64,000 bases of DNA, from the NCBI RefSeq assembly GCF_008831285.2, contig NC_045143.1, positions 3,171,503 through 3,235,502 of the forward strand, written 5' to 3'. The stretch comes from Nymphaea colorata. Taxonomy: Eukaryota; Streptophyta; Magnoliopsida; Nymphaeales; Nymphaeaceae. Shown piece after piece: positions 5,195 through 64,000 of this stretch. A program made the position numbers and the translations under genes. The notes under the pieces were generated by a model. It searched no databases, had not been told where the DNA came from, and saw only the letters and a program-made list of their open reading frames with translations. Every line of letters begins with the position of its first letter. Position 1 is the first letter of the stretch.

Positions 5195-5247
5195 AAGAGA
5201 TGCCTTGGTCTTTGAGCAACCAACGAGGAAGGGCAAGGAAGAAAGAG

Positions 5248-7877: not shown

Positions 7878-9200
7878 TTGTTTCATTGAGCAGATGGTGG
7901 TCATGAAGGTTTCATGACACCAGTCACTATGTAGTCAGCCATCTCACACATGGCTTGCGGTTACCAGACACACTTTTGATAATTCATTTGTCTACCCAGC
8001 AACAGAAAAACCTGAGAGAATTTGAATTTTTTGTTATCAATGAACAGAAAGGAGCTGCATGGATGATGTCACAAGAAGCAACGCTGCACTTTCCTTGATT
8101 AATTCATTGCTTTTTAGTACTGCAGGACAGGAAAGGGGTACTTCTTAGGCGTTGTTGAATACTGTAATGGAATAACATGCTCTCAGAGATGAACTAAATA
8201 ATCGATAATGAACATGATGTTTAGATATTATGTACACCACCTATCATCTGGTAGTAGATTCTTGATGGCTGAAGGCTTAAGTGGCTTAATCGCATCTAGC
8301 ACAAGTGAGTACTCGCCAACTTCCATCTCTAGATCTATAAATTTGAGATTTTGTTCTAATTGGTCTAGAATCAAGTCACCATATGTAAATTTGAGTTTGT
8401 CTCTTTTGCCTATAATTGCCTTATGTAAGTTTGAATTTACCTGTTTTTTGCTTAAGTTTCATGTATATGCTTGCATTTTTGTGGTTTATCTATGTTTGGC
8501 TATAATTGTCATATGCCAACTTGAATTTTTTGCTGGAAATTCACGTATGTGAGGTTGAGTTTTTTTCTACGCACATGAACTGAAGCATGTTTCTTTAGAA
8601 CCGATCAGACATGTCACAAGGCATATATTTTTGCTTTACAAATTTTTATTTATGGTGATCAGACGTGCAATCGGTGTGTCCTCTGTCAGGCTTTTGATGA
8701 AATTAGCAGCTTCATGTTTTAACATTGAATGAATGTCGCCGGCGTCCTTTCCCCCAGAATTTGGCGTCAAGGAACCATGTGTTCCTGCTAATTTTGAAGG
8801 GTAGATCAATAACAGCGCTTGGTTACACAGTTCATCTGAGTTTGACGAATCTCTACATTTCAAGTACTATGTGAGTTTGTGATCGTAGCTCTACAGAAGA
8901 ATATGTAACCTATGGCCTATACGCAATGCCCAAGAACAAGAGAAAGAACAAGAGAGGAAACAGGCAGCCGTGATTGCTTACCATTTGTCGTCATAAAGGC
9001 ATAGCCTTAGCGAGAGCAATACTGGAGGAAGAAAAACGCGAGGCAAGTGGAGCGTGCCAGGGAAGGCTGCTTAGGGTTTTTCTCAAATTCATCCCATGCT
9101 TTTACAAAATTGACAAATTCACCCTCTCGCTAATTGCAGCGAACAGGTTCAGGGGCTGCTAGAGCGCTGGCGATGTTGAGTCGACCCTGGAGGACGGTCG

Positions 9201-22575: not shown

Positions 22576-23134
22576 GTGTGTATGTGTGTGTGTTTGCGTG
22601 TGTATATATAAATATATATATAAAGGGGTACATCTGCGTCAGTGTTAATTGGTTGATCACTGGATTTGTTTGTTTTCGAGTCGCTTATCCGCATTTTTAT
22701 ATATAATGCTTAAGATATTTTAAATTGTCTATGATATGTTCTCTTATGAAATAATGCATGGTTCTACTATGTTTACGATTTTATGCGCTTAATTACGCTA
22801 AATGTACTAATCAAATATTGAAGCATAATCACTTAGTCTTCTGTCACATAAACATGTTCAGGGTCTCCATATATGAACCCAAATAGAGTAGTCTGCTCAC
22901 AGTCTGCTCTTCTAATTAGCATGAAAAAAGAAACTAAAACATAACTAAATAGATGTCTTCATTTCTCTGCCCCGACTTTAAAGTTCTTTCTTCACTAGTT
23001 AATACGCATTCCAGACATTTCATCATCAGCAGGACAGCCTGCAGATAATCAGATAGTAGTGATCAAAGTAGTGAAATATATAAGATGCAGATGACAGAAG
23101 TACGATATAGAATGGACGGTGTGAAGGCGTTCCT

Positions 23135-26100
23135 TTATGTTTTCAGGTTTTTCAGATTACCAGAGCTGCAAGCATGGTGATGGAAGTTTGGTTCTTGCAG
23201 GTTTGGCTGAGTGGGTTGAAGCCAGTTGGAGAAAGGAGGAGAAAGCTGAAGCAGGTCTCTGGATTGCTCATCTTGATCGAAGGTGCCAAAGTCGTCGACC
23301 AGCGGTGGGGCATCTATCACCTGAAGTAGGTCTCTGGGTTGCTCATCTTCAGTGACAAAGTCATCGACCGGCGCTGGGTCATCTATCACCAGGGGCTTCT
23401 TTGCCTTTTGGCGTTCAAAAAGCTGCGAGAGAAACAAGATAGGTAAAAGTGAAAATGTAATATCTTCTTCCATTTTCTCTGTTTCTTTCCCTTTCTAGAA
23501 CATGGAAGAGAACTCGTTACATGCCGAAAAAGAAGATGGAATCAGCACGAAAAAAAAAACAAGAATGAATCACCAGTTTAATTTTGGTAGGTACTGTAAG
23601 GCGTAATTTCTTATAAGATTCAGATCAACAGAATCTTTATGGGATAATATTAGCTTCTACTTAAATTTCTTCTAGTAGCACCTTTCCATGCCGTTGTACA
23701 ATGAATAAGAAAGCACACTTATTTGACTCAGAAGCAGATACACCAAGCTAGATTTTAACTTTTATAAGTTCCAGATTTTCAGGCTGAAATTTCAAACAAA
23801 ACTCGCATAAATATGAACCTAAGGACGGAGCCAAAGCCTATCCAACACAAAAAGAACAGTTATAGATCTGCAGAAATGGAAAACAGGAAAAAGAACGAAG
23901 TTGAAACTTGAAAGTAGAGATTACCGCTCTCGAGAATTCATTGTTGTGTACTTCCAAAAGGCACTGCTCCTATTCAAAGGAGAAGACAGTTGAGCTCTCA
24001 ACGTGATCTTGATTTTTGTTTACAACTTTATGGCTTGAACTAAATGAAGAAACCATGCATTTAAGTACAAGTGGTACCTTTCTACGCAAGTCGTCAAGCT
24101 CTTCTTTGAGCAACTGGATCTGCGTAAGCTTCCATGTGTTAGTGAACCCAGAGGGAGAGCGAGAAAGAAAGTGATAGAGAAGAGCATGAGGAGTTGTCGT
24201 TGTCATTGTACCTCCCTTGAGCGGACTCGATCTAAAGAAGCTTCAAGTTGCTTATCAAGGTGTTTCAAATCGGTCATGGTGAGAGTGGTGAGATCCTCCG
24301 CAGTTAAGTGTCGCATGGTTTCTCGCAGCTTGTCATTCTCATTCTTCATTTTCGTCATCTCACAGTATATCTGCTGGCAATGGTCAGGTAATCTTATCAA
24401 ACTCAATTGCGAGAATCAATCTTCTGTACGATATCGTACTAATTTACGTAAAAGGGAAAAAAAATGTGAAGATCTGTCGCTGCTGACCAACCTGTTTATC
24501 ATCGTATTCCTGAATTCGAGTGCCTGATGCTTTCTTGAATCTATCAATAATCTGGCACATGCTGCAAGAGTGACCACTTTTTATTTCATCATTTGATACA
24601 TGGTAATAGCTACTATGTGCTCACAATGATGAAATAAATATTCTATAACATGACTAACAACTTGTAAACACAGAAACAGAGTATATGACATTTGATTGCG
24701 AAAATTATATTTTAGAAGAGATAACGTATAAACGTCTAAAGATCTGGCAAATTATTAGTGCAATCGACCAACAAAATGTGGTATTTAATTGGGTAGCTCT
24801 CCCTTCATAATCGTTAAAGTTCCTAGATCTGAAATTCTCGTTTATATGTCCTGCAGGGTCACTAGTAGCAGTTGGATTGAAATCTTAGCATCTCGGCTCA
24901 TCTAAGCTACACATAGCAGCAAAAGTTCGTATGCATATCGTTATTGTACCATACAAATAACCAACTCCTCCTCCTGCTGCACATTTCACGAATAGAGTCA
25001 TCTACTTTCGTTCCTTAACTTCGCCGTTCTTTCTGAAGATGAATCTTGGGAAATTTAAACCTCAAAATTACTCAAGAAAAATAAAAAGTCGAGAAGAAAT
25101 CTTTAAACACAAACATGTAAAAATAAATTGCAAATATCACGAAATCAAATCCCATAAGTTGGTGACACAATAGAAACATATCCCAATGCTTGTGATTATA
25201 CGCTCGTGAAATAATGTCTAAACAAGCCCGGAAATGATGAGCTCTCATTGGGACTCTGCACCATTTCTCGTTGTGCAGGGTGGTCCTACTACAGACTTAG
25301 AACAGTCTGCCTGTTCAGATGACCTGCAGACCCACATGGCAAACCCAGTACCGCCATATCCTCTACTTGATGATACTGATTTCATCTTGCAAATCTGTTG
25401 CTTAAAGTGAAGAAAATTGCCAATTTGGTTTGAATCAGCCAAATTTCTGACTGCCAACAACTGTTCCCTTTTTCCCAAATCATGCTCACCAACGTGCTAC
25501 AGAAAATGGTCTGTCTGTGAGGATATTGCCTATGCACTGTGAAGACAAAAGATGCATTCGTCAACAGTCTTTTCATCTGAAGATTAATGGACGTGATCTG
25601 AACTGAGTGAATGTAGAAACAAGTATCGAGAACACCACCGGGATACTTTTCTCTCTTAGTCGATGAACTACCGGCTCAGTTCCTTACATTGGCAGGTGAA
25701 TGATACGTGCTTCAGGAATTAATACGCTTGGAAACAGATATGCATGCGCGCATGTGTATAGCATAAAAGGCAGAATCTTATTATGGTTAAACAGTGAATC
25801 TTATTATGGTTAAACAATAGTTCTTCTTCAAATGACGTTTCATCAATCTGTGACGAGTATCTCGTAAAGGCCAGTTTGATTGTTTGAGAATCTGGAGTCC
25901 AGATGATACATGAAAAGAAATTTTGTAATATCGTTAAGCATAATATTTATTTGACTACCAGGTGACTGAGAGGCGATTTATATCCTTGATGGCATAAAGT
26001 GAAGTTAATCATCATATCCAGCAGTACCACTCTTCCGAATTTTTGCATGTCTACATTTGTTTTACGTTATAAAACCAAAGAACAGGAGATAGAGACTGTT

Positions 26101-27215
26101 CCATGTAATGCAATCCAGCGTCTTACATAGCAGTTCCTTCACATCATAACGACCGGATTATAGAGAAAGTAAATAGAACATATAATTAAGTTTTATTAAT
26201 CTGAACCAAAAAATAAGTGTATGTCTAGAAATGAAACGCATCAGCTTCTTTGATTTTTCGTTTTTCCTCACTGTGTTTCTTAATTTCTTCCCATTTTTCT
26301 TCTTGTGTCATTTGTGAAAGCTGAATTCCTTACAATAACCACATATTATAAAGATTCAGAAAAATTCATATGAAGAACAATTTCTCTTTTAATGTCTTGT
26401 GCTGCTTCTCATTAACCCCAAGACTTAGTTAATTTGGTTCGACAATCGTGATTCGTTTATATAATCCTTTTGATTAACAGCCGTGCGTCAAATAATTATG
26501 GTTAATGATCATCGTATCGCATGTGTCCAACTGCTTCATAACAAGCATATCAGAACAAACTTTTGATAGGCGCCTTCGATTTTTTAGTCGAAATAATCCA
26601 TTGGAGAAAAACAAGGACTCAGAAGCTGAGACAACATGTTCAAGTTAAATAAAAAGAAAGCAATACCATTTTCATGTCAAGATTTACCCTAGCATCTATA
26701 AAACCATCTGAAGGAAAAGGAATGAGCCTAAATATCTTAAAGCAAAGTCCTTATTGTCAATCCGGTCAAAGATTTCAGGATCTCATAATTATGAAACCTG
26801 GAATCGCGTCCTGGTCAAGTAAATGTAGAACTGCACTGGCTAAATATTTCATGAAAGTAAGCAGAAAATCACGCACTTAAAAAAGAAAACTTGTCACATC
26901 TTACCAAAATATATAGAATCTGAAGAAAGGCTTCACTTCATCAAATTTTCTAGACCAAGATCCTAGGCAAGAGAAAATAATTGTAAAACAACATTGCTGC
27001 AACAGAGATATATGAAGGAACCTGGAGTGGGGACTGCAGTACTCGAACATCTGCCCACTGCTGGAAAAGATGATGAGTCCGATCTGGGCATCGCAGAGGA
27101 CGGCGAGCTCATGCGCCTTCTCCAGCAACCCGTCCCGCCTATCGGAGAACGTAACTTGCCGGTCGGTGGTGTTCTCAATCCTCCTCATCTCAACACTTCC
27201 ACGTCCTATGCTCAC
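23135..27215 (-). CDS. B-sister MIKC-type MADS-box protein, six exons, 266 aa
   Basis: Coding exons (minus strand): 27,215-27,022; 24,561-24,492; 24,373-24,212; 24,119-24,078; 23,969-23,925; 23,422-23,135. All introns are GT-AG and phases fit. Exon 1 encodes the MADS domain (residues 3-62) ending FEYCSPHS; exon 2 the I region ([13 protein letters not shown]); exons 3-5 the K coiled-coil domain ([47 protein letters not shown]); exon 6 the C region. [10 protein letters not shown] near the end is the PI-derived motif of B-sister proteins (TT16/ABS, GGM13), transcription factors of ovule and seed-coat development. Oddities: an extra SI after Met1; several DNA-contact positions are acidic (see findings); exons 3 and 4 of the usual plan are one 162-bp exon; the C region has a 23-25 residue tandem duplication; the tail is frameshifted after FHHH. 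The frame is otherwise open, so it may be expressed. Confidence 0.9.
23246..23389 (-). repeat. Tandem duplication inside the MADS C-terminal exon
   Basis: Two adjacent units encode [23 protein letters not shown] (23,389-23,321) and [25 protein letters not shown] (23,320-23,246). The DNA units are clearly related, in frame, and differ in length by six bases. Other B-sister proteins have one such acidic block before the LQL motif. Confidence 0.85.
24562..27021 (-). other. Large first intron of the B-sister gene
   Basis: 2,460 bp between GTTCCTTCA at 27,021 and CTCTTGCAG at 24,562. A long first intron separating the MADS exon from the rest is typical of MIKC genes and often carries regulatory sites. 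Open frames at 25,245-25,576 and 26,674-26,880 have no recognisable domain and are taken as chance. Confidence 0.8.
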
Positions 27216-27314
27216 TTAAATGTGATCTCCACACTCTCAGGCGCCTGAATATGATCTCCACACTTATCAGAAATAGAAATTCTGATAAGGGGAAGAAACG
27301 CGGTGATGAACAGA

Positions 27315-27339
27315 AGAGAGAGAGAGAGAGAGAGAGAGA
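27315..27339. repeat. (GA)n tract in the MADS 5' leader region
   Basis: 25 bp of GA on the plus strand (CT on the coding strand), about 100 bp upstream of the ATG. Confidence 0.9.
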
Positions 27340-27446
27340 TGAGGGGAGGGGAGGTGCTCTCAGTCTTGAAGGAGGTCTGCCATGTGGTAGTGCCCCAAGA
27401 AGGGAAAAAGGAAAAGGTGGTGTGGATGGGTAACTGCCCTCTGGTG

Positions 27447-27456
27447 CCATTTTTGG
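27447..27456. promoter_or_regulatory. Perfect CArG box upstream of the MADS gene
   Basis: CCATTTTTGG fits CC(A/T)6GG, the DNA target of MADS-domain proteins. It lies 232 bp upstream of the start codon, where auto- or cross-regulation by MADS factors would act. A single 10-bp match can arise by chance, so binding is inferred. Confidence 0.45.
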
Positions 27457-27587
27457 GAGGGGGAGAATAGAGAGCCCTGCAAGAAACCACTGGACTCCAA
27501 TGACCCTTCCAGCAACAGACAGATCGTCCATATCTCTGGTTCAAACCTACCACTCTAAAAAAGAATTCAATTAGACCCCAGCAATGT

Positions 27588-27588
<1 letters not shown>

Positions 27589-27644
<56 letters not shown>
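27589..27644. repeat. (CT)n microsatellite in the MADS upstream region
   Basis: 56 bp of perfect CT. On the coding strand this is a GA repeat, the kind of sequence bound by BASIC PENTACYSTEINE factors that regulate ovule MADS genes in Arabidopsis; a role here is inferred only from position. Confidence 0.9.
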
Positions 27645-27647
<3 letters not shown>

Positions 27648-27927
27648 TTGTCAAAAAGAAGGCTACTGAAGCCTGTTCTTGAAAAGAAGAGCAGGAATTG
27701 GATTGTTTAAATGAGAATGAGGATGTGGGGAGTCACTGAATGGGAGTGGTGGGTGAGTTGATGAGGTTACCAGTGGGAGTAACGCTGTACCATCCCATTT
27801 GGGGAAGGAGAAAAGGAGGAGGTTGCCTTGTTTGGTGCATGGCACTGGCGACGTGTAGCAGAGGAGTTCGTATCGATATGGGGAATGCTGGAGGGTGACG
27901 TAAGAAATTTAAGTTCGATTACCCACA

Positions 27928-40631: not shown

Positions 40632-41079
40632 ATACTCCAAAAAACCTGGTTTTTTGAATTGTCATTTAAATTCTCTCCAACATCTTATTTTTCAAAAATC
40701 TTAAGGGGGGCCTTTGCTTTTTCCCTGTCCATAAGCACTTCTTTGGTTTATTATTGTAAAACTTACCTTGCAAATTAAAACTACTTGTTCCAATTTTGCT
40801 AAAACAAATCAAGCATGCTAAAATGTGTTGCAGGCCTAAGCGCTCAATTTTTTACTCCCGATGGTTTCCTAAATTTGTTTTAAAGAATGAAGCATACTTA
40901 CAAAATATTGTATTACAATGGTTTACAAAAATTCAATAACTTTAGAACAAATTGCGACAAACTGTTTTTGTTGCCAAAACATAACATATTTTTGAAAACT
41001 AATTTGTAAAGAAGCTTCGGTAGAAGGGACACCGCATTGCCGGCAACTTTTCCCCTTAATAATAATGTTGGATGTTGTA
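40632..41079. repeat. 0.45-kb repeat R5, second copy
   Basis: Reverse complement of 14,670-15,130. It truncates the copia integrase frame that comes in from the right at about 41,080. Confidence 0.75.
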
Positions 41080-42860
41080 ATCAAACTGAGTCTTTATTTC
41101 AATAATGAAATTTTGAAGAATACAAATAATTTCAAACCTCTCTTTTAACAAGAACACCCAACTAAGACGAGAAAAATCATCAACAATAATAAGGTAATAC
41201 CTAAATTTGGCCAGACTTACAACCCGGCTAAGCCCCCAAACATCAACATGAATAAGATCAAAAACTGCATGACTTGACGGACTACTGCTGGAAGGAAAAC
41301 TACTTCTAGTGTGTTTGCCCAATTGACAGGCCTCACACTGGAATGACTTAGACACAGAAATATTATGGAGAACACCATGAAGCTTGGATAATGAAGGATG
41401 GCCTAGTCGGAGATGCCACTGATATGGGGTTGGCTTAGATAGAGCCATAGATGTCACGCCCTCCACTGCTTCCGACAGTAGGTAAACTCCCCTGTGTTCA
41501 TGGCCGCCACCAATCATCTTCCCATTTTGCAAGTCCTGAAAAACACATGAACCAGGATCAAATATGGTTCTATAGTGCAAATCTTTCGTCAACTGAATAA
41601 CAAATAGAAGGTTAGCAGGAAACTTTGGAGCATATAAAACATGAGAAAGAATGATAGAACCAGGAAGCTTAACATCCCCAATTCCCATAATAGGAGAAAG
41701 CTTTCCGTTGGCGTGAGACTGACTGCAAAAGTGTTTCGAAGCCCCAGAATCAATAATCCACATAGTACCTGGTTCATGGGAAGTACTAGCAACAGATAAA
41801 GAGGAATCCACCATGACTGAGGAGGCAGCTGTAGACATCGTGGTAAGAAGAGATCGCTGAGCCATAAGCTGAACATACTCTGCCTTACTCATAATCACTG
41901 TAGAGTTCTCAGAATTCATCGAGGAATGAGTCTCTCCAAGTGGTGTAGTAGCTCGGGCAGACCCTATAGGAATCTGAGAAGAAAAGGTCTCTTTGCCCCC
42001 TGAAGTACTAGATCCCTTACCATGGGAAGTAGAAGCTGGTCTACCATGTTTGTCTCAACATCTATCTTCCAAATGTCTTAATTTTTCACAGAATGTACAT
42101 TGAAATCTTTCTCTACCCCCTACACCACGACCTGAGCCTCTTCCCCTCGTGGCTTGTCCACGCCCTCCAGACACATCTAAGGCTGTAGAAGGAGACTCAC
42201 TCTGGGGCTGAGAGAGAAATACAACCAATCTACTGAGTCTATTATATGCCTCAGCAAGATCTGGAATTTTTGCTCCAGTAAGCATCTGAACTTTTGCTAC
42301 CTCATACTTAGGGGACAAACCAGCCAAGAACTTAGCCACCATAGTCTCCTCAAAATACGTCTTGTAACATGCCTGGCATGAAGGTCGAAGAGCCTTCAAT
42401 CGTTCATACGCAGCTTTAACTGAGGCAAAGTATTGAGATAGTTCCAATTCACCTTGCTGCAGTTTGAGTAGTTCTTCCTAAAATTTTTGAGACATTCTTG
42501 TCATGAGAATAAGTTTGTCTCAAGAACGTTCACATATGTTTGGCAATCGTATACTAGGCAAGAGTAGGAGCTATATCCATTTGCACATTGTTCATGATCC
42601 CAGGACATAACAATACTATTATCTTCTTTCCATGTGGTATATTTCTTAGTTTTAATACTCGGTTCATCTTCTTCAATGATGTGGTCTTTCCGATGTCCTA
42701 CTACAAACATCATAAACATTCGTCACCAGATTTCATAGTTGTGACCATCTACTTTCACAGTAGAAGCATAGAAGAAAGGATTCCCAACCACTTTGTATTC
42801 AGTATGAGGCTCAATCCTAGGACTGTCTCCCATATTAGACTGTTGTCCAAGCTCTATTGT
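41056..42860 (-). pseudogene. Ty1/copia gag-protease-integrase remnant
   Basis: Minus strand, from right to left. Near 42,830 a gag start reads MGDSPRIEPHTEYK then GHNYEIW; 42,447-42,055 holds the gag body (YFASVKAAYERLKAL, LAGLSPKYEVAKVQMLTG) and a CCHC zinc knuckle (CTFCEKLRHLEDRC); 41,919-41,056 holds the aspartic protease (WIIDSGASKHFC), the GAG-pre-integrase zinc domain (WHLRLGHPSLSKL, CEACQLGKHTRSSF) and the start of the integrase core (DLIHVDVWG, YLIIVDDFSRLSWVFLL). It breaks off before the second catalytic Asp, at the R5 repeat. Stops separate gag from protease. Reverse transcriptase and RNase H are absent, so it cannot move by itself. Confidence 0.88.
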
Positions 42861-46089: not shown

Positions 46090-46266
46090 CTAAAGAAAGA
46101 GAAACCTCATATCCTAAGGAAGCTGCTGCAAATTCAAGGCGTTGTAATCAAATGCATAGGCAAAGTAGACATAATATCTAAAAAAAACACGTCAAACACC
46201 ACCCTCCATGCGCCTCTGCGTTTGTTCACATGAAATTATTGAGACGAATTTTGCGAGGAAACATCC

Positions 46267-47355
46267 CACTTGATTCTCCAAAGAAATGAACAAAACATAC
46301 TGAGCATCATTCCTTGAAAGTAGCTGCCCCACTGAACAACGGAAGGCACCCTTCCAAATTAGGGTAACCAAACATGGAAACGGTAGGAAAACCAAGGTAC
46401 AATCGCAAAACGAACAAACAGAAGCACGGAACACAAAATCAAAAAGAGAGACAATAAATCTAACAAAATCCTCACAAGAAAAAAACTTGGTAGCAAAAGA
46501 TTTTTCTTTTTCTCTTCTCTTCTCCACAATATCAAGTCCCCTACAGACTCGTCGATACCGCGGGGATCCTGGATCAGCCCCTACAGACTTGTCGAAACGA
46601 TATCCGCATCCAGATCCATAATTTTCAAGACCGAACAAAAACCTACATTTATCGCCCGTTCGGCCCCTATCTCGGCCTCTTCTTTAACAGAAAAAATCAA
46701 CAAAACCATCAAAAAACCTCGTTGCAAAATTTGGACATCCGTTAGTCCCAAAACATGGGAAAGACGTTTGCTTATTCCGGACCCAAGATTTGAGGTGATT
46801 CAAGTTTGTTATCAATTTGACGTTAAGACTTTTCTCTCAACTTTGTATACGAGGTTTTTAGTCATATAGTGAAGTCAAATCGGATGTCCAAATTTTGCAA
46901 TGAGGTTTTTTGATGGTTTTGTTGATTTTTTCTGTTAAAGAAAAGGCCGAGATAGGGGCCGAACGGGCGATAAATGTAGGTTTTTGTTCGGTCTTGAAAA
47001 TTATGGATCTGGATGCGGATATCCTTTCGACAAGTCTGTAGGGGCTGATCCAGGATCCCCGCGGTATCGACGAGTCTGTAGGGGACTTGATATTGTGGAG
47101 AAGAGAAGAGAAAAAGAAAAATCTTTTGCTACCAAGTTTTTTTCTTGTGAGGATTTTGTTAGATTTATTGTCTCTCTTTTTGATTTTGTGTTCCGTGCTT
47201 CTGTTTGTTCGTTTTGCGATTGTACCTTGGTTTTCCTACCGTTTCCATGTTTGGTTACCCTAATTTGGAAGGGTGCGTTCCGTTGTTCAGTGGGGCAGCT
47301 ACTTTCAAGGAATGATGCTCAGTATGTTTTGTTCATTTCTTTGGAGAATCAAGTG
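46267..47355. repeat. Large palindrome, two 475-bp arms around 139 bp
   Basis: 46,267-46,741 and 46,881-47,355 are near-identical inverted copies of equal length. The spacer (46,742-46,880) is unrelated to either arm. The outer halves match the CIPK-leader family of 1-250. Each arm gives an open frame starting MFGLENYGSGCGY; because the arms are almost identical this is not evidence of coding conservation. Confidence 0.92.
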
Positions 47356-49482
47356 AGAATCAAACCACCTACCAGACTTTTCATAAAAATATCTGCTTTT
47401 ACCACATATAAAGAACAAGATTTCGAAACAAGTGAAGACCGCAGACCGCAAGGGATGAATATTGAAACTGGCAAAGGTGTGGTCAAAAGTAGGTTTTGAT
47501 TTCTCTAAAATTATATACATATTTTTTCTGCTATTAAAATTGGATTTTGCTAATATCCAGGTATTGACAAATTTTTTTTGAATGATGATAATACCCACTT
47601 TAGGTAATACCGATTATTTATATTAGCTAAAATAATAACCTATTAATAATATTTTTAATAGAAAAAAATACAAACAGAATAATATTTGACAAGGTAAAGT
47701 CACGCGTCTTTTCCTCTCTATCTCTTAAGGTTGTTTGATAGTCTTCGATTTCAAATTAGCAAACGTGGATTTTACAACCATGAATCTTGAAATCAAAGAG
47801 CAAGAGAGAGAGAGACGGTCGACGGCATCAATTGTGGTTGTTTAGTTGCAAGGAGAGATCGGTCGACTGCGTTATTCATGGTTGTAGGCATAGGTTGGAG
47901 TGAAATGAGAAATTTTTCATAAGGAAGGCCGAATTAAATGGGTCACGGCACATGCAGGCCAGGATTTCAGGTGAAAAACCCATTGTTTTAGCAAACGTGG
48001 ATTTTATAACCATGGATCTTGAAATTAGAGAGAGAGTGTGTGTGTGTGTGACGGTCGGTAATGACTCTGTCGACGGCATCATTTGTTGTTGTTTAGTTGC
48101 TATATGACTTGATGCTTCGAAATTTTAGTCTCTTTCTATGTTTTCTTTTGTTGAAAATCATTTGCTATTGAGTTGTAAAAAAAAATTTCTTGGTATATAT
48201 ATTATGTAATGGATTTCTCTGTGATTTTCAGATACAAAAATACCAAAAAAAAATTAACAATGATGCCGATCTGACTCTGTCCTCCTCCGGTTGCCTTCAA
48301 AATAATACGGAAATAAAATAAAACAATAGAGTAAATAAGAAAGTTGCATTTTTGTTTCAATTGGAAATTTATTTTAAACCCAAATCAATTTTATTTTAAT
48401 TCAAATATTTTATAAAATTTCATTTTTTTCCAATTTTTGCATGCAAAAGCAACGACCGGATCAAGGGACATCACGGCTGCACCATTATACGGAGCTCAGA
48501 CCATTATAAGGAACTCAGTTTAGGAGAAATTAACTTGAAATTTATAATTTTAACACATATCAAGATTAATATAATATTAATCAGCCCAAATTAATTTTAT
48601 TTTCAAGTGATTGAATAGAAAGAGGCGGTTTTCCTTTTGTGGGTTTGCACCGAATGCTATTGTCATCAATAAATCCTAACTTATTCTTAGCTGATAGAGA
48701 CATAATCACGATTTTACTTTACTTTCTACGCTACATAAGATGGGTCATTGATGTGCAAGTTTAAGTAGCGCTCAAGCATTGGGGTGGAGCCAAACATTTT
48801 TTTATGAGGGGGGTCGAATTAAAGTTTTTAAATGTTGATCTGTGCTAAAATATTAATTTTCAAAATTTTTACGTAAAACAAGCGAAAATTCTTAAAATTT
48901 TACATGTGGATTTTTTTTTTTTTAAGTGGGGCCATGGCCCTTACGAACCCTACTCTGGCTCCACCTAAAAGGCACAGAATGCATGCCTTGTATTTTAAAG
49001 GAGATAGGGGTTAGGTTGATTCTTCAAATACTCCTCCTACTCTCCCAAAACGTGGTGAGGCAATCAAGTTTGTTCATTCTTGATGTGCCACTTAACTGGC
49101 TGGTGGTTTTACTCGCACTTCTTTTCATTCATAAATTAATCCTCAAACTCTACCCTTTGTAGATTTTAGAGTTGTTTTTTCTTTTTTTTTTCAGGTAGCA
49201 GACCAAAAAAACAGGTTATGTTCATAGGGTGCATAATGACTAAAATACTAAAAAAAGTTTTTTAAGAAATCAAAAACTGTTAAAAGCTTAAAATATACAT
49301 ATTTTAAAATCACTCTCTCTTAACTCGCACATTGATTTCCCCATCACTAAAATCACTATAATCATCTGAATTAGACGACATCCCCTCCTACGCAAAGCGG
49401 ATCACCTAACAAGAAAAGTAAATTGACCAATGAACTTGATGATCATGATGATGATTTACAACAAACTTTAAAACCCAATTTA
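47356..49482. other. Repeat debris and intergenic DNA
   Basis: 47,360-47,800 is the inverted partner of 4,640-5,110. 47,760-48,080 contains two related stretches around GCAAACGTGGATTTTA and CCATG-ATCTTGAAAT. 48,100-49,470 is AT-rich with no recognisable gene. Confidence 0.4.
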
Positions 49483-54393: not shown

Positions 54394-54595
54394 GTACTTT
54401 AACACCTGATTTTATTCCATGTCTCTTCTTCAACACCATGCTTTATATATATATATATACTTGTCCCGTACAGGCACAGTGATTGCTGTGCGATCACATT
54501 CTCCTCGTGTATACATTCTGCCAAGTTCTCTAATCAATGTATTGTTAACCCATGGTTCCATTCCATGTCTTATCTTCAACACCATGCTTACACAC
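54303..54595 (+). repeat. Three-unit degenerate tandem repeat with TA tracts
   Basis: Units open AATGTACTTTAACACCTG and contain TCCATGTCTCTTCTTCAACA followed by CCATGCTT and a TA tract (54,358-54,390 and 54,445-54,460). The third unit at 54,526-54,595 is diverged and lies in the start of the 1.78-kb duplicated block. Confidence 0.8.
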
Positions 54596-55116
54596 ATGCC
54601 GGTCTCATACAGGCTCAGTGATTGCTGTAGATCGATGTTCGCAATTCAAGTTAATGTGATTCGATACAAAGTAGCATCACGCTCTGTTTGGCCTTTCAAA
54701 TTGTGCATGTATGAACGTGAGAGAGAGAGATGTCTTATCTGCATGCTGCAGAGAGCTAAATAAATAATCTATGTGCAGTCCCATAAAGATTTAAAAAAAC
54801 CCTAGTAACAAGATCATGTGGAGATAAGCCAGTAATGGAAGTTCCGGTGACTTAACAACGAATTGAACGAATACGATCATTGTGACCGACTTGGCTGAAT
54901 TATTGAGGAAGCCACTAAACTAACGTGTTTACTCGAACCAATGCTAGACTGTTTCTAGGGTAAAGCTTCCCCTGGTAATTTGCTAAAAAATGCTCGTGCT
55001 TTAACTAATATAAATAAATTGAACCATTTGAGAAGAAGGGGGCCTTCACCACTCGTCCATCGGCATTGGCATGATAATCAACTGACCACTTGATGGGTAT
55101 GAGTGATTCAAAACTA

Positions 55117-55528
55117 TCACCAAAAATCTTTACAAGAACAGAAACCATCATCGAAATGGTGAAAACGAGTGCGGTCCCTGATGACCACTTTCCTGCCGTA
55201 CAGTTTTGATATGATCTTGATGGCAGAATGGCAGTGGGGACACATCCGTAGGTTCTTCACAATTCTGATGGTTGTCCCTGGACCTAAAATGATAAGGCTA
55301 AAATCCAGTGCCAACTTCTCACTGTGGCGATGAAGTGCATCCTCCTTTTCTTCTTCCCCAAGATCAAGCAACACTTCTGATGTATTGGGCACGTATCCCG
55401 CTAACTTCAACTCACTTGCCATTTCGTCCAACTTTGAGTAAATAGCCTTTGACCGAGGATGAGAGCCATCTCCACCAACAAATTCATGAACAACCCCAGT
55501 CATCTCAATCAAACTGCAACCAAGATCC
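55117..55528 (-). pseudogene. PPR protein, E/DYW C-terminal domain only, copy 1
   Basis: Minus-strand frame: DLGCSLIEMTGVVHEFVGGD, SHPRSKAIYSKLDEMASELK, LAGYVPNTSEVLLDLGEEEK, HRHSEKLALDFSLI, KNLRMCPHCHSAIKIISKLY, RFHHFDDGFCSCKDFW and stop. This is the end of a plant PPR protein with a DYW cytidine-deaminase-like domain; such proteins edit C to U in organelle RNAs. The HSE zinc/catalytic motif and CxxCH are present; the usual Asp in CxDCH is His here, and the tripeptide DYW is DFW. No PPR repeats precede it: at 55,529 the sequence switches to TTTTTTACA, the end of a copia LTR. Dead 3' fragment. Confidence 0.88.
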
Positions 55529-55529
55529 C

Positions 55530-55874
55530 TGTAAAAAATCAAAATGAATAAATAATTAAAGGGACATGAAATTTTAAAGTGGTTCAACCAATAGGCCTAC
55601 ATCCACTACTCTATCATTTCTTGTTTGCCTTTCTTTGGTGGAGAGGCTCATTTATATAAAGGAGTTACATAAGGGGTCTCTAGTTTCCAAAAGATATGAC
55701 GTTTCATCTTTCAACATACATGACTTTTCATCACTCAAAAGACATGATTTTTCATCTTTCAAGAGACATGACTTTTCATCTTCCAATAGACATGACTTTT
55801 CATCTCTCAAGAGATATGACTTTTCATCTTTCAAATAATTTACATTGAGAGCCTTCTTGGTGTTTCTGTTAACA
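55530..55874 (-). mobile_element. Copia 3' LTR inserted in the PPR gene, copy 1
   Basis: Minus strand from TGTTAACAGAAAC to TTTTTTACA, 345 bp, directly preceded by a polypurine tract (GCGGGGGGA at 55,875-55,883) and by the RNase H end of copia, so this is a 3' LTR. A TATA-like TTTATATAAAT lies near 55,655. The U3 part holds a 24-bp minisatellite. The LTR end falls exactly at the break of the PPR frame, although the final TTTTTTACAG could also mimic a splice acceptor. Confidence 0.7.
55690..55850. repeat. 24-bp minisatellite in copia U3, about seven units, copy 1
   Basis: Units of the form CATGACTTTTCATCTTTCAA plus four bases. On the minus strand they encode an eight-residue repeat (LKDEKSCL with variations) continuing the RNase H frame. 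Confidence 0.92.
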
Positions 55875-56047
55875 TCCCCCCGCAAGCTCAATGCTCCAAC
55901 AATAAGATTGAGCTTGTTAATTATTTGATAATGGTGCTGCTTACTAAGTGGCTTAGTTAAAATATCAGCAATCTGATCTTTGGAAGAGATGTATTGAATT
56001 TTCAAATCTCCTTTAGCCAATTTTTCTCGAACAAAAATGAAGGTCAA
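55875..56047 (-). pseudogene. Copia RNase H C-terminal fragment, copy 1
   Basis: FVREKLAKGDLKIQYISSKD, QIADILTKPLSKQHH, NLIVGALSLRGDV: the invariant end of copia RNase H just before the polypurine tract. Everything upstream in the polyprotein is missing, replaced by a fragment of the 0.3-kb repeat. Confidence 0.88.
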
Positions 56048-58122
56048 TCTCTATGTGTTTGCTTGTCGTATAAAACTGCTTAAAAGAGTTCAGCGGCAAT
56101 CGTTATACTTTGCATTTGCAAATCTTTCTCTTTCTTTTTCCTTCTTAAGCATACAAGTACTGCATATACTGAGAGGGGTGAAGCATGGGAGGGAGGAGCA
56201 TATGCGACAGTGTTGGATTTGGTTGCACAACAGATGTTCTCTTCATATATACTTTTGTGGGGAATGTTCCACCCTCGGCTTGTTTTCCTTAGGGCCTGTT
56301 TGATGGGCGGGTGAAATTTAACGCGGTAATTTTATCATGGTAAATTTTTCTAGAAAAATTTAGTGGATGAAATTTCACCCTCTTCCAAAACGAGGCCCTG
56401 TTTGATTGTCGGGTGAAATTTAACGTGGTAAATTTAACCCTGTTTGATGAACATGAAAAATTTAACGTGGTAAATTTAACCCTGTTTGATGCACAGGAAA
56501 AATTTAACCTGCAAAATGATGCACCACCAAACGAGAAAGATCATCACCTCATGGAACCACCACCAAGCCAAAACCAACAAACAAAAAATGGACTGCAGAA
56601 CCCATATATTTCTTCATGAATCATGCCAAAACAAATCACCATACAACCAGTTCATTAAAGAGACGACCATTCACATGATATATGTAACAAAAAGCAAATT
56701 GGCAATACATGAAAGCAGACGCCTCCTTTAGCCACTTCATTTTCAGGTCGGCAATACATAAAAGTAGATGCCTCTAGCCACTTCATTGAGAATAAAAGTA
56801 AGTGAATGTGCAGCTGTTCACTCTCAGTTCAGTGGCCACAAACATGAGCTACCAGGAAGCTGCTCTGCTGAGACTGTGGGGTTACTGCACTCCAAGCCTT
56901 TGCAGAAGCAGAGATGATCTATACTTCTATTTGGCTTTTCTAGTACATACTTTGTATTCTTGATCGCTTTTTCGATGTTGAAATCATCCAAATCTAATAT
57001 TTCTCATGATTGATAATCATTGGAGGTTGTTGGTGTGAACGCCAGTGACTCAGAAAACTGTAAGTTACTGTTCAGAATACCTAGGCCAGGCTCTTCATTG
57101 AAGGCAATAAAAAAAAAAAATCTCATCTTGAGCAAACCTGAGGCAGATCTCATAATTTCTATAAATTAAGAAGATGCAACGATACATAACTGTAATCACT
57201 GATATTGTTCTTCAGAATACCTAGGTCATGGAAGGCAATAAAAAAAAAAAAAACTCATCTTGAGCAAACCTGAGGCAGATCTCATAATTTCTATAAATTA
57301 AGAAGATGCAACGATCCCAGTTGTCCACCGTTGTGGCATTTCCCAGTAGACAGGAAGAAAGGGAAAAAAAATGGTACGCTTGCATAAAAATGAATAATTC
57401 ACTCAACTGGGAGAAACAATACGTCAAAAATAATGAAGAAAGGGTTGTTGCAGAAACGAGGAAATAATGAATAATGCACTCAACTTGGGAATGTAAAACT
57501 GCTTCTAAGATGCAACGATACATAAAATCAGAACTGATCTAATATGCAGAGATTAAACGAATGGATTGAGCAAGGAAAACGTAATCCCAATAATGAGCAA
57601 GGAAAACGTAAATGAACAATGACCGCTGCACATAATCCCGAATACCCTACTAAGAAAATCAAAACGCAAATCCCCAACTCCAAAGAGGAGAAAAATCAGA
57701 CAACGAGAGTGAGAGAAACAGGGAGACAACTAAAGCAAGAGAGACGGGGAGACAACGAGGAGCAAGAGAAGAGAGACAGGGAAAAAAAATTTGGGCGTTC
57801 CTTGGGCGGAACGACGATGTGGCGTTGACGAACCTCCAAATATATCGCAAGAGAGAAAGGGAGAAAACGAGAGCAAAAGAGACAGAGAAAAAAAATTTGG
57901 GCGTTTCTTGAGCAGAGGGAGACAACGAAATCTTACTTGGCGGTGACTGTGGGTTGGCGAAACGGTGGAGGAGCGGAGCAGTGACGGCGGAGCGGCGATG
58001 TTGCCAGCGGAGATGGCGGAGGAGCAACGATGAGAGGGGCGACGCCTCTGGTGCGACGGTAAGAAGGCAAGAATGCGAGGGAGAAGAAGCTGCGAAGGGA
58101 GGACGTTTGTGAAAGCATTGTC

Positions 58123-58221: not shown

Positions 58222-58849
58222 GTACAAATTTTTACCGCTCCATCTACATTCTGCCAAGTTCTCTAATCAATGTATTGTTAACCCATGGTTCCATTCCATG
58301 TCTTATCTTCAACACCATGCTTACACACATGCCGGTCTCATACAGGCTCAGTGATTGCTGTAGATCGATGTTCGCAATTCAAGTTAATGTGATTCGATAC
58401 AAAGTAGCATCACGCTCTGTTTGGCCTTTCAAATTGTGCATGTATGAACGTGAGAGAGAGAGATGTCTTATCTGCATGCTGCAGAGAGCTAAATAAATAA
58501 TCTATGTGCAGTCCCATAAAGATTTAAAAAAACCCTAGTAACAAGATCATGTGGAGATAAGCCAGTAATGGAAGTTCCGGTGACTTAACAACGAATTGAA
58601 CGAATACGATCATTGTGACCGACTTGGCTGAATTATTGAGGAAGCCACTAAACTAACGTGTTTACTCGAACCAATGCTAGACTGTTTCTAGGGTAAAGCT
58701 TCCCCTGGTAATTTGCTAAAAAATGCTCGTGCTTTAACTAATATAAATAAATTGAACCATTTGAGAAGAAGGGGGCCTTCACCACTCGTCCATCGGCATT
58801 GGCATGATAATCAACTGACCACTTGATGGGTATGAGTGATTCAAAACTA

Positions 58850-59261
58850 TCACCAAAAATCTTTACAAGAACAGAAACCATCATCGAAATGGTGAAAACG
58901 AGTGCGGTCCCTGATGACCACTTTCCTGCCGTACAGTTTTGATATGATCTTGATGGCAGAATGGCAGTCGGGACACATCCGTAGGTTCTTCACAATTCTG
59001 ATGGTTGTCCCTGGACCTAAAATGATAAGGCTAAAATCCAGTGCCAACTTCTCACTGTGGCGATGAAGTGCATCCTCCTTTTCTTCTTCCCCAAGATCAA
59101 GCAACACTTCTGATGTATTGGGCACGTATCCCGCTAACTTCAACTCACTTGCCATTTCGTCCAACTTTGAGTAAATAGCCTTTGACCGAGGATGAGAGCC
59201 ATCTCCACCAACAAATTCATGAACAACCCCAGTCATCTCAATCAAACTGCAACCAAGATCC
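58850..59261 (-). pseudogene. PPR E/DYW C-terminal domain, copy 2
   Basis: Same frame as copy 1 except that the zinc-site motif reads CPDCHS, the family consensus, instead of CPHCHS. Copy 2 therefore keeps the ancestral residue. It is equally lacking PPR repeats and joined to the copia LTR. Confidence 0.88.
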
Positions 59262-59262
59262 C

Positions 59263-59607
59263 TGTAAAAAATCAAAATGAATAAATAATTAAAGGGACAT
59301 GAAATTTTAAAGTGGTTCAACCAATAGGCCTACATCCACTACTCTATCATTTCTTGTTTGCCTTTCTTTGGTGGAGAGGCTCATTTATATAAAGGAGTTA
59401 CATAAGGGGTCTCTAGTTTCCAAAAGATATGACGTTTCATCTTTCAACATACATGACTTTTCATCACTCAAAAGACATGATTTTTCATCTTTCAAGAGAC
59501 ATGACTTTTCATCTTCCAATAGACATGACTTTTCATCTCTCAAGAGATATGACTTTTCATCTTTCAAATAATTTACATTGAGAGCCTTCTTGGTGTTTCT
59601 GTTAACA
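59263..59607 (-). mobile_element. Copia 3' LTR, copy 2
   Basis: Duplicate of 55,530-55,874, including the 24-bp minisatellite (59,423-59,583). Confidence 0.7.
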
Positions 59608-59780
59608 TCCCCCCGCAAGCTCAATGCTCCAACAATAAGATTGAGCTTGTTAATTATTTGATAATGGTGCTGCTTACTAAGTGGCTTAGTTAAAATATCA
59701 GCAATCTGATCTTTGGAAGAGATGTATTGAATTTTCAAATCTCCTTTAGCCAATTTTTCTCGAACAAAAATGAAGGTCAA
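59608..59780 (-). pseudogene. Copia RNase H C-terminal fragment, copy 2
   Basis: Duplicate of 55,875-56,047 with the same QIADILTKPLS signature. Confidence 0.88.
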
Positions 59781-60175
59781 TCTCTATGTGTTTGCTTGTC
59801 GTATAAAACTGCTTAAAAGAGTTCAGCGGCAATCGTTATACTTTGCATTTGCAAATCTTTCTCTTTCTTTTTCCTTCTTAAGCATACAAGTACTGCATAT
59901 ACTGAGAGGGGTGAAGCATGGGAGGGAGGAGCATATGCGACAGTGTTGGATTTGGTTGCACAACAGATGTTCTCTTCATATATACTTTTGTGGGGAATGT
60001 TCCACCCTCGGCTTGTTTTCCTTAGTTTGGGTTTGAAAGTTTGTTGCAAATCATCATCATGATCATCAAGTTTATTGGTCAATTTTAGTTTAATGATTTT
60101 AGTATGGGTAAAGGGAAATCAGTTTGTTCTAGTGCTTCTATGTGATTTTCGCGTGGTAAGGTTCGGTGGTGAAAG

Positions 60176-61745
60176 GCTGGATTCTCAATGAAAATTCTGA
60201 AATAGTCATAGAACAAATTTTTTCTTAATCTTGATTAGTACGCTAAGCCAATCTGATCTCAAACTTCTTTTTTCAAAATGAAAAATTTGCAGCCAATATC
60301 AAGTTTTCTGCTTCATAACTTCAGACGGTATGAACGTTGTTTAGTTATGTTTGCCTCAGATCTGAACTCTAGCGAAGCAACAAGGACCAATCTGTTTCAT
60401 AGAAGGAACTCTGGCCTATTTCTGCTTCAAGCCTCCCCAATTGTTCAAACCGAACAACAATTCAAATCTTGCTTTGCAGTAGGACTTTCTTGTCATAAAA
60501 AAACTAGGGATGCACTTGCAGTTGTAAATTAAATATGACATAGATGCAGATATGAATTATACGCCAATTGCGGGATGATTTGTTTACTCCTGTTGCTGGT
60601 TGGGTCTGTTCAACAAACTTGTGGTTCAGTTTCCAAGTGAGAGAAATCAACTGTACACTAGTAACGGGCTACATATGGTTTTAATTCTGATCTCATTATG
60701 ATGAAACTGGACCATATCTGGCCACATGCGATGCACACATTAGACACGGGTGGGTGATTCAAGCGCCCATCAACCAAAAAATGCTGGCTCCGCCACAGGT
60801 GTACCCAATTATAAAAAAAACTATTCTTAATATTGAAGTTGTAGTATAGCGTTGATATCACTTTGAAATACTAAAACTAATAAGCATGCTCTGCACGATT
60901 CAAATGGTTCTATTTCTATGCAAAATTACGTTTATCACTACTCACAAGAAGTCATAATGGTTTGAGGACCACAACTTGCTGCATCACCATTATAACTATC
61001 ATTTCTTTTACAGGGTTTAAAGAAATAATGCTAAACATGATTTAATTGAGTTCTGTCCAATATTTAGTGTCTTTCCACAAGGCAAGGAAGAAGAGGAAAA
61101 TTATTGTCTTTTTCAAAGAGATGATCCAAATTGTGTGCACTTAGTTTTTAACAGCGGCTCCTCCATCCAGTCACCGCACACTCACGATTCAATGACAGGC
61201 AACGTACGTTCAATCAAGATGCTGAAATTTACATCGTACCAGCACATAGTAAGATAAATATCGACACAGAAAAAACTTTATAAGACTACCTTTTCATTTC
61301 AAAGCGCATAATCCGGATAAACATGCCTCAGGCTTTTGAATTATTCAGTTTATCTGTAAGAACAGACGATTGTATCTTTTTCCACTTGTCCTCCACAAAA
61401 TGAGATTAGTCTAGTTGGGCAAGACTCAGTGACGGCAAATGATAAATGATAATGAGATTAAGTGGACTTGTTTTCTAAGAGGGTGTTTGGTTGGCCGTTT
61501 GGAAAGAGCGAAGACACTCCTCTCCCTCTCAATCCTAAAGTTCAGAGCTCCGCTCAATTATGGTACATCTTTTAATTTGAATGTTGTGCATGTGGTTCAA
61601 ATGACTAATACACATATTAATCCAACTAAGAACATGTTATTATTGCGACACTCAAATCAATTAGTTATACTACGGCCCTTGTAATATTTCTGTTACCAAA
61701 CATTTTATGGAGGAAATGTTTGTTATATACGACGCTGCGGGCGCT
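60176..61745 (-). repeat. Inverted partial copy of the 3-kb unit
   Basis: Reverse complement of parts of 37,400-39,490, including the 84-codon frame, the segment around 38.6-38.9 kb and the CACGATT-GCAGCG end. The region 37,400-38,300 is represented with deletions. It ends within 40 bp of the K-box hairpin. Confidence 0.8.
60278..60532 (+). other. Conserved 84-codon open frame in R7, copy 3
   Basis: MKNLQPISSFLLHNFRRYER through SCHKKTRDALAVVN, same length and frame as 39,126-39,380. No family recognised. Confidence 0.4.
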
Positions 61746-61779
61746 GCATCCACGATTTATGGAGGAATTGTTTGTTGAG

Positions 61780-61893
61780 GAGGATCTCACCACTCTCACC
61801 AAGACCGATTTGAAACACCTTGAAAAGCAGCTTGAAGTTTCTCTATATCGAGTTCGTTCAAGGGAGGTACAATGACAACGACAACTCCTCATG
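61780..61893 (+). pseudogene. B-sister K-box exon fragment, arm A
   Basis: Plus strand reads EDLTTLTKTDLKHLEKQLEV then SLYRVRSRE and the intron start GTACAATGACAACGAC. It matches the 3' part of MADS exon 3 and 34 bases of the following intron (24,293-24,180, minus strand) with about nine substitutions. In frame, but no MADS or I exon is nearby. It forms the left arm of a hairpin. Confidence 0.88.
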
Positions 61894-61944
61894 ATTGAGC
61901 AAGATCGAAACACCTTGAAAAGTTCACTTAAAGATAGAGAAGAG

Positions 61945-62055
61945 CATGAGGAGTTGTCGTTGTCATTGTGCCTCCCTTGAGCGAACTCGATGTAGAGAAA
62001 CTTCAAGCTGCTTGAAGGTGTTTCAAATCGGTTTTGTGAGAGTGGTGAGATCCTC
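61945..62055 (-). pseudogene. B-sister K-box exon fragment, arm B, frameshifted
   Basis: Minus-strand copy of the same exon and intron start, in reverse orientation to arm A across a 51-base loop. Three deleted bases in two places alter the frame inside TLTK-TDLKHL. A few more exon-like bases (RHLT) extend to 62,069. Confidence 0.88.
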
Positions 62056-62075
62056 AGTTAAGTGTCGCTCGCCAG

Positions 62076-62165
62076 TGCCGTGCACCGGACAACGGGACAA
62101 GGCGGAAGTGGATAACCTCCTCCTTTTCACATCCTCATTCTCATTTGAACAAGCTTCAGTCTGTT
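62076..62165 (-). repeat. Shards of the MADS upstream region
   Basis: The reverse complement contains GGTGCACGGCACTGGCGA, GAAAAGGAGGAGGTT and AAATGAGAATGAGGATGTG, matching 27,700-27,850 with deletions between the pieces. Confidence 0.7.
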
Positions 62166-62252
62166 GCGCCGAACACAGACACATAACTGAACGGTGAAAA
62201 AAAAAAGGCGAATATAAAGAATTTTACAGATTGTCATTAGTAAGTTAATTGG

Positions 62253-63020
62253 GTCATATGAATTTTACTGGTATAAAAATCAGATCCAAGGCGGGTTCAA
62301 AATGCCTCTGAAAGAGGCAGGCCGTATGTTAGGACCGAAAATGTCCAACTCAAAGGACTAAGTTTTCCAAATATTCATTTCCTTCAAGGGCACTAAATCA
62401 TCTCTGGCGGATGAAATGGGGAACCGTCGACACATGCTACGCTTTTCATATAGCTGTTCTCATAATCAGTCGATATTGATTAGGTGAATTCACAGTCAAT
62501 ACAATTTGGTTTGGGTATTTATCAGATTATTTTTTGTCAGAAGGAGCCGGAATATCAGGTATATATATATATTCTTTATTAAATATGTATAACTAGCAAA
62601 GACGAGACCAAAACAATTGCTAAGATGCTGTTCCTATTTTATCCAAAGTTCAAGGTGCGGATAAAACTAAACAAAAGTTGATTATGTTTTGTTTTTAAAA
62701 AATTCAGGAGAAGCCCGAGCTAACGCTCTTTTGCTTATGAACCCATACATTTAGACGGCCACTATTTCGGTAGCACGTGTTTTCTCAATTTTGGGGGAAC
62801 AATTCTCAAGTATATATAAGACTGGTAAAATGACACTTTATTATTATTATTAATATTGTTATTACTGCTATTATTTCTATTATTATTATTACTATTATTA
62901 TTGTTAAGATATGCTATTTAAAATCTAGACATGAATGCCCTGCATGTAGCTTAAATTTCTGGTTGCATCACTGCTGTGGGTAATCGAACTGAGTTTTATA
63001 AAGTTCTTCAACTTCAAATC
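62253..63020. repeat. Inverted copy of the MADS upstream segment
   Basis: Reverse complement of 27,928-28,745. Its order relative to the shards at 62,076-62,165 is not the order at the source locus, so the copy was rearranged. Confidence 0.85.
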
Positions 63021-64000
63021 TCAAGTTTCATCCCCTGATCACAAGGTTAGAAGTCCGAATCCTACCAAATTGCTTCCACTTCGCTAACTGAAAGGCAGTA
63101 ATTAAGTACCTGTTGATCACAGAGCTTGGTAATTAGTTGAGCTCTTTCATCGCCTTTCTGGTTAATTTCCCGCATATAGAGATGAATTCGTGTAGTATGA
63201 AGAAGGCCTCAAGGAATCATCAATATCTTAACCTGCTGATCACTTGCATGCTATAGCTCTAGTCTTTTCGTTATTGAACGTTCAAATCGGCTTCACTATT
63301 TCTCCGCAACATTGCTGAAGAAGGAATGCTTATGCATGTTTATAAGATAATCAGATTAATTTGAGAAAGTGCAAGAGATTAGTGGAGTTTTCCACACTGT
63401 ACTGAACTTCACTTATTGATCTGATAACAGGAAATGCATAGAGAATCACAGATTGGACATAGTAGAGCTAAAAAGAGGCAGAACTCCAACCTTGGTCCAA
63501 CGTATATCGCATCCCTATGCTGTTCATGAAAGCTTTTGTTCATGATCCGGATCCACCAATTGTTCATTTCTCAGATCTCTGGCTCTGAACTGGTAGCTTA
63601 TAAGCTCAACCTTCTTCACTAAGGCTATGTTGGATAGCTAGCATGGGATCTCAAATCTGCATTAGGAGAAATCCACTACTGAATTAAACGGTGGATTTCA
63701 CAGCTGTGGATTTAATTAAGAGCCACATTACGTTATAAAAACCATGCATCTGTACGGTTTTAAGATATCTGTGGATCTGGGTAGCCTTGGATCCCTGGAT
63801 CTAAGGTCCAAAGCTATCAAACATAGCCTGAGAGATATCTAAATCCAACCCCTAGTCATCAAGTGAGCCAAGGTACTCTTGTTAGCAATATTAGTTTCAC
63901 CTTAGTTAATACCACACAAAGAACGTTGCCCTCTTCTCAAAATGCAAACAGTTAGTTCATGTTCTACAGCCATAAAGCACAATTAAGTTGGAGCTAGGAT
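63021..64000. other. Intergenic DNA, no gene identified
   Basis: No long open frame. 63,640-63,840 contains GTGGATTT/AAATCCA and GGATCT-type repeated words reminiscent of the style of repeat R4 but not alignable by eye. Confidence 0.35.

Follow-up and report, generated by a model that had tools for sequence, protein, structure and literature searches.

An inverted pair of MADS-box exon fragments at positions 61780-62055 of the window, as we call the whole 64,000-nt stretch of Nymphaea colorata DNA analysed here (C6:3171503-3235502), is probably a rearrangement scar, left by inverted duplications that recurred among the decaying B-sister gene copies of a cluster, and at most a passive source of siRNAs. 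This interpretation is drawn from the clustering of inverted repeats at the gene copies (P 0.0009), from six groups of such repeats that contain gene sequence and from five out of five chromosome-6 copies that look decayed. It is also drawn from a match to the intact gene that has not been kept, promoter pieces that are directed away from the pair and the lack of excess CG decay in the copies.

The earlier note on this DNA had described two arms of 111-114 bp facing each other across 51 bases. This anatomy was confirmed by a self-BLAST of the window, in which 61780-62055 appeared as a palindromic self-match (E 5e-74), and by a separate repeat search of the window, which recovered the arms as three pieces. 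The parts of the hairpin are:

61780-61893, plus strand: arm A, 114 nt, in sense orientation; 61780-61866 is the 3'-terminal 87 nt of B-sister exon 3, and the following 27 nt belong to intron 3.
61894-61944, plus strand: loop, 51 nt.
61945-62055, minus strand: arm B, 111 nt, the same exon/intron stretch in antisense orientation, with gene homology continuing to 62068.

Arm B extends beyond arm A by 13 nt of exon (to 62068) and by 12 nt of intron (from 61933), the latter forming the last part of the loop (61933-61944). The loop also holds a third exon scrap, in sense orientation, at 61907-61922, which is identical to 61812-61827 at 16 of 16 positions. The alignment of the two arms contains 5 substitutions at 111 sites and 3 gap columns (95.5% alike), which is the divergence previously counted by eye, and the count of about nine differences between arm A and its source exon also proved accurate (92.4% of 118 nt, or 9 mismatches, against the window gene; 8 of 114 over the core). 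The translation of arm A (61780-61872, 31 residues) matched the Pfam K-box with an E-value of 1.9e-6 and 28.4 bits, the curated cut-off being 30. The identification of the arms as an inverted pair cut from a B-sister-like MADS gene, each with K-box exon and donor intron sequence, is supported.

The possibility of a misassembly at the inverted junction should be considered here, since a single assembly was examined. However, a missed adapter or a chimeric read would be expected to leave near-identical arms, whereas the observed arms differ by the 5 substitutions and 3 gap columns, end unequally and enclose a distinct 51-nt loop. There is also no N in the window, and we find an artefact scarcely credible.

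When folded in silico as RNA, the segment 61760-62080 reached -212.3 kcal/mol, as compared to a mean of -86.2 in shuffled sequences (z -20.6), and none of 100 shuffles was as low. The 276-nt foldback at 61780-62055 gave -207.4 kcal/mol on the plus strand and -190.8 on the minus strand, and has the stem-loop form of the precursor of a plant MIRNA gene. In agreement with the long duplex proposed earlier, RNA across the pair would according to this model form a near-complete duplex of about 110 bp if transcribed.

Both primers of the chromosome-6 marker Ny-6.2 (PMC9601493, Table 1) matched C6 once each, facing each other at a distance of 251 bp, and we therefore consider C6 to be chromosome 6 of N. 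colorata, an assignment by one of 13 published primer pairs. In the assembly searched (407.8 Mb in 783 contigs), for which all match counts are lower bounds, the arms gave at least 14 matches, corresponding to seven places matched by each of the two arms; one of these places is the inverted pair itself, and the other six are single copies of the exon. Five of the six single exon-3 copies among the matches listed are located on C6 (3.19-3.69 Mb, including the window gene) and one on C1. Six exons make up the C1 gene, whose open product of 232 residues carries SRF-TF (88 bits) and K-box (93 bits) domains; in a protein search of the genome, this gene was the single place with near-identical exons throughout. 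We take the source gene to be a B-sister gene from the motif FEYCSP and the C-terminal LQLW, the name being based on these motifs and not on a tree. Other MADS exon-1 matches in the protein search were at 64-76%, and the genome may contain another B-sister gene that is more distantly related. The same search also showed MADS-domain matches in dense arrays elsewhere, at C13:8287232-8303420 and C7:5654170-5761463.

The copy inside the window has the following features:

22670-27903, minus strand: the window's decayed B-sister copy, which is related to the arms and spans the gene from its promoter through the 3' region.
27022-27209, minus strand: exon 1 (MADS box) of this copy, SRF-TF 77 bits.
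24212-24370, minus strand: exon 3 (K-box) of this copy, K-box 56 bits; the stretch matching arm A is 24185-24302.

About 12.7 kb of the window around this copy is collinear with C1. The copy has ATA at the position of the start codon of the C1 gene, and its MADS domain contains charge reversals, from basic to acidic, where the C1 gene reads SKRRGGLLKKA. Exon 1 stays open despite these reversals, and the product might be a non-DNA-binding protein instead of the copy being a plain pseudogene. In the other four copies on C6, the alignment of exon 1 starts at base 29 (L009) or base 13 (L010, L011 and L012), with internal deletions in all four. Four of the five C6 copies share the loss of one base shortly before exon 6 ends, the alignment of L009 stopping short of that point. 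Judged from their sequences, all five chromosome-6 copies look decayed, and overall they differ from C1 at 7.3-9.3% of sites; L012, whose exon 3 carries a deletion and is poorly aligned, was retained in the counts and in the tree. The B-sister gene at 23-27 kb, to which the arms had previously been related, is one of five decayed copies. Another decayed copy, L009, is about as close to the arms or slightly closer, and the intact close relative is present on chromosome 1.

The arms differ from each other at 5/111 sites, less than either does from any full copy (7/114 to 14/111), and they group in the tree with a bootstrap value of 39 and a FastTree support of 0.65. Arm B shares two states with L010 and L011 that are absent from arm A, while its exon end carries the state of the window and C1 copies. 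With a bootstrap value of 39 and conflicting affinities at few sites, a single template for both arms was not established, and the sequences are compatible both with one inverted duplication followed by drift and with the joining of two neighbouring fragments. MIR824, the arms of which are described as resembling two different regions (PMC1790633), provides a precedent for an origin by joined fragments. An origin from a transposon or MITE was rejected, as the assembly contains one inverted pair and not the many copies by which such an element is recognized. A known RNA family was rejected as well, because a search of the whole window against Rfam at gathering scores gave 0 matches, including to any described MIR family.

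The sequences on either side of the hairpin provide information about its setting:

61083-61762, minus strand: local repeat with other copies at 38083-37410 and 34962-34309; it stops just before the hairpin, where the other copies run on.
62069-62092, plus strand: proximal promoter piece 1, a weak match (87.5%, E 0.04), gene-sense and directed away from the hairpin.
62128-62152, plus strand: proximal promoter piece 2 (96%, E 2e-5), gene-sense and directed away from the hairpin.
62223-64000, plus strand: far-upstream region of a B-sister copy (L014), gene-sense, away from the hairpin and gapped, with about 0.68 kb more past the window end.

The far-upstream region to the right of the hairpin comprises about 2.4 kb in all, with gaps. 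Of 781 sites compared with the stretch upstream of the window gene, 32 differ, as against 123 of 1322 compared with C1, which indicates that the hairpin locus belongs to the chromosome-6 amplification. Two further elements were observed in the window. The segments 54512-56292 and 58245-60025 are direct repeats, 99.94% identical over 1781 bp, the first of which holds a DYW-deaminase ORF on the minus strand (55120-55596), and this pair may be a very recent duplication, an element or an assembly duplicate. In addition, a retrotransposon-type ORF with GAG-pre-integrase and Pol beta-barrel domains is located at 41059-42054.

Inverted repeats, defined as minus-strand self-matches with an E-value of 1e-8 and a spacer of less than 1 kb, were searched for in DNA stretches from C6 and C1. 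In 254 kb of C6, five groups were identified, at 5241-7884, 46264-47358, the hairpin, 183068-183151 and 231211-233065, the last being the promoter of L011. The first two are larger inverted repeats in the window, with arms of about 1.1 kb and 0.55 kb, and contain no B-sister sequence. Elsewhere, two groups each were found in L009 (C6:3639200-3649100), L010 and L035 (C6:3587001-3590500) and one in L012, and there was no inverted repeat under this rule in 30 kb around the C1 gene. Gene sequence is present in six groups:

61780-62055 of the window: the hairpin, with 240 of 276 bases gene sequence, from exon 3.
6998-7769 of L009: a 772-nt inverted repeat, with 749 of 772 bases gene sequence, from intron 3, exon 4 and exon 6; -569 kcal/mol.
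2815-2969 of L009: 79 of 155 bases gene sequence, from intron 1.
231211-233065, the inverted repeat of L011: 216 of 1855 bases gene sequence, from the promoter.
770-2430 of L035: 1310 of 1661 bases gene sequence, from exon 1, two palindromes of a tandem duplication.
2716-2973 of L035: 200 of 258 bases gene sequence, from the 3' region.

In chromosome-6 coordinates, the hairpin corresponds to 3,233,282-3,233,557, the L011 repeat to 3,402,713-3,404,567, the L035 repeats to 3,587,770-3,589,973 and the exon 4 to 6 repeat of L009 to 3,646,197-3,646,968. The tandem duplication in L035 is 1.3 kb long and 91% identical, and its MADS-box fragments alternate in orientation. The repeats of L010 (0 and 6 bases) and L012 (0 bases) adjoin the copies and are practically devoid of gene sequence; one of those in L010 holds far-upstream sequence known from C1.

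Six inverted repeats were located in the four 9.9-kb loci with an exon-3 match (39.6 kb), as compared to four, including the hairpin, in the other approximately 244 kb of contiguous C6, an enrichment measured against adjacent C6 sequence (binomial P 0.0009; 0.0004 without the hairpin); the background in all comprised this C6 sequence and the 30 kb of C1 only. These four loci had been picked by the exon-3 match only, and L035, which had been picked for its alternating MADS matches, was left out; the region C6 3.425-3.72 Mb was covered in part. Since the inverted repeats of L009, L010, L011 and L012 do not match one another, they do not represent one inherited event, and the recurrence of other parts of the B-sister gene in nearby inverted repeats points to a rearrangement-prone cluster. 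It is this recurrence within one gene family, with several inverted repeats within about half a megabase, that is the surprising part. In part against a scar, three of the six repeats behind the enrichment (two in L010, one in L012) are almost without gene sequence, so that the clustering is partly beside the copies and not of them.

The presence of several gene parts as inverted repeats, together with the strong predicted duplex (z -20.6), would also suit our main rival explanation, according to which the pair is a working hairpin-RNA locus of the OGI/MeGI type that is transcribed and diced and acts in trans to silence B-sister genes, either by itself or jointly with the cluster's other inverted repeats. 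Within the cluster, the anatomy of L009 suits an expressed hairpin RNA better than that of the window pair does, with promoter homology directly before exon 1 and the exon 4 to 6 inverted repeat after exon 3, yet its repeat matches the C1 mRNA poorly (0 and 7 of 752 21-mers with at most 2 mismatches). The recognizable promoter pieces beside the window pair, on the other hand, are oriented away from its arms. For the window pair, 10 of 91 21-mers from a plus-strand transcript and 26 of 94 from a minus-strand transcript, two of them perfect, were antisense to the C1 mRNA with at most 2 mismatches, as compared to 0 from a control stretch of 256, which speaks for silencing. With the plus-strand 21-mers, all five C6 copies scored above C1 (11 to 29 of 91, the window copy reaching only 11), and with the minus-strand 21-mers this was true for four of the five (28 to 43; L012 19). 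Furthermore, the arms differ from C1 at 12 of 114 (arm A) and 14 of 111 sites (arm B) and are thus as far from it as the decayed window copy (11 of 114), which means that the match to the intact gene has not been kept and argues against a silencing locus.

Likewise, a comparison of CG sites between C1 and the window copy revealed 20 changes from CG to TG or CA in the copy and 19 in the reverse direction, with a transition/transversion ratio of 1.01. The ratios for the other four C6 copies were 0.86-1.07, as compared to 1.16-2.14 for five repeat pairs of the window. Excess CG decay was thus not found in the C6 copies relative to C1, and their sequences give no sign of long targeted methylation, the contrast with the repeat pairs being modest; this too speaks against silencing. 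The transitions between the arms, four of four of which are G.U-compatible on the plus strand (P 0.06), weakly suggest that the RNA is constrained, in favour of a silencing locus and against a scar. The arms being still 95.5% alike also speaks against a scar. None of ten other inverted repeats displayed a pairing constraint with P <0.05, that of L009 having 8 G.U against 13 A.C. Taken together, we consider a hairpin-RNA silencing locus possible but doubtful.

Inverted duplication of a target gene had originally been invoked as the accepted model for the birth of plant MIR loci. In this reading, the pair would be a MIR gene recently formed from an inverted duplicate of its target, and DCL1 would release one precise miRNA from it. 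The foldback arms have extended similarity to a protein-coding gene, covering exon 3 and intron 3 at seven places including the hairpin, as outlined for the inverted-duplication model (PMC3237417, PMC1790633). However, a near-perfect duplex of about 110 bp would, as the latter source describes this stage, favour mixed siRNAs (PMC1790633). The outer 21 nt of arm A, in an alignment by eye, correspond exactly to the C1 gene, but most decayed copies share the block, which is therefore not specific, and arm B is deleted there. With promoter pieces directed away, no Rfam match at gathering scores, arms at least as far from the intact gene as a decayed copy is and other gene parts in nearby inverted repeats, the MIR suggestion is not supported, and we regard it as highly improbable.

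We therefore favor the rearrangement scar, and hypothesize that the pair is one of the recurrent inverted duplications of the cluster, formed when breaks were repaired or templates switched between adjacent copies. Such patchwork repair is in keeping with the scrap of exon in the loop and with the truncated promoter pieces next to the hairpin. Selection would not be maintaining the pair. A read-through transcript could fold into the duplex of about 110 bp and be cut into siRNAs by Dicer enzymes, and these would find better matches in the decayed copies on chromosome 6 than in the intact gene on chromosome 1.

A more far-reaching idea is that the chromosome-6 region as a whole is a gene-specific silencing cluster, in which the decayed copies and the repeats of exon 1, exon 3, exon 4 to 6 and the promoter give rise to siRNAs that damp the intact B-sister gene. 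We consider this very unlikely. B-sister genes such as TT16 and MADS29 are described as promoting removal of the nucellus, which the Nymphaeales retain as storage tissue (PMC6105262). If the idea were true, damping of the B-sister gene by siRNAs could conceivably help to keep the nucellus. No mention of the cluster was found in the available main-text portions of open-licence papers, including the water lily genome paper (PMC7015852). In an early-branching flowering plant, the cluster shows a developmental gene that has undergone inverted duplication repeatedly, which is the raw material that current models propose for the origin of hairpin-siRNA and MIR loci.

The Arabidopsis gene AGL16 belongs to a different MADS subfamily from the B-sister genes. 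Its regulator MIR824 resembles the window pair in that the foldback arms come from a MADS-box gene and each arm is closest to a different source stretch (PMC1790633), but it is described as producing a defined miRNA that represses AGL16 and as having a conserved miRNA segment, features that would be hypothetical for the window pair. OGI in persimmon is likewise a gene duplicate carrying an inverted repeat (PMC7048303), but it represses MeGI via small RNAs and sets sex, whereas the window fragment, a candidate at most, is the end of one exon only. The hairpins formed by inverted pseudogenes in rice are similar in structure, with a stem of more than 100 bp, a loop of less than 2 kb and paralogous pseudogene pieces on opposite strands (PMC2708354), and the window pair has this structure with arms of 114 and 111 nt and a loop of 51 nt; the second rule given in that study is the density of mapped small RNAs (PMC2708354). 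Finally, the pair is comparable to the non-conserved local inverted duplications of plant genomes reported to yield mixed siRNAs (PMC1790633), in that it too is one such local event and would form a long duplex, but unlike these it belongs to a cluster with several such duplications from one gene family in about half a megabase.
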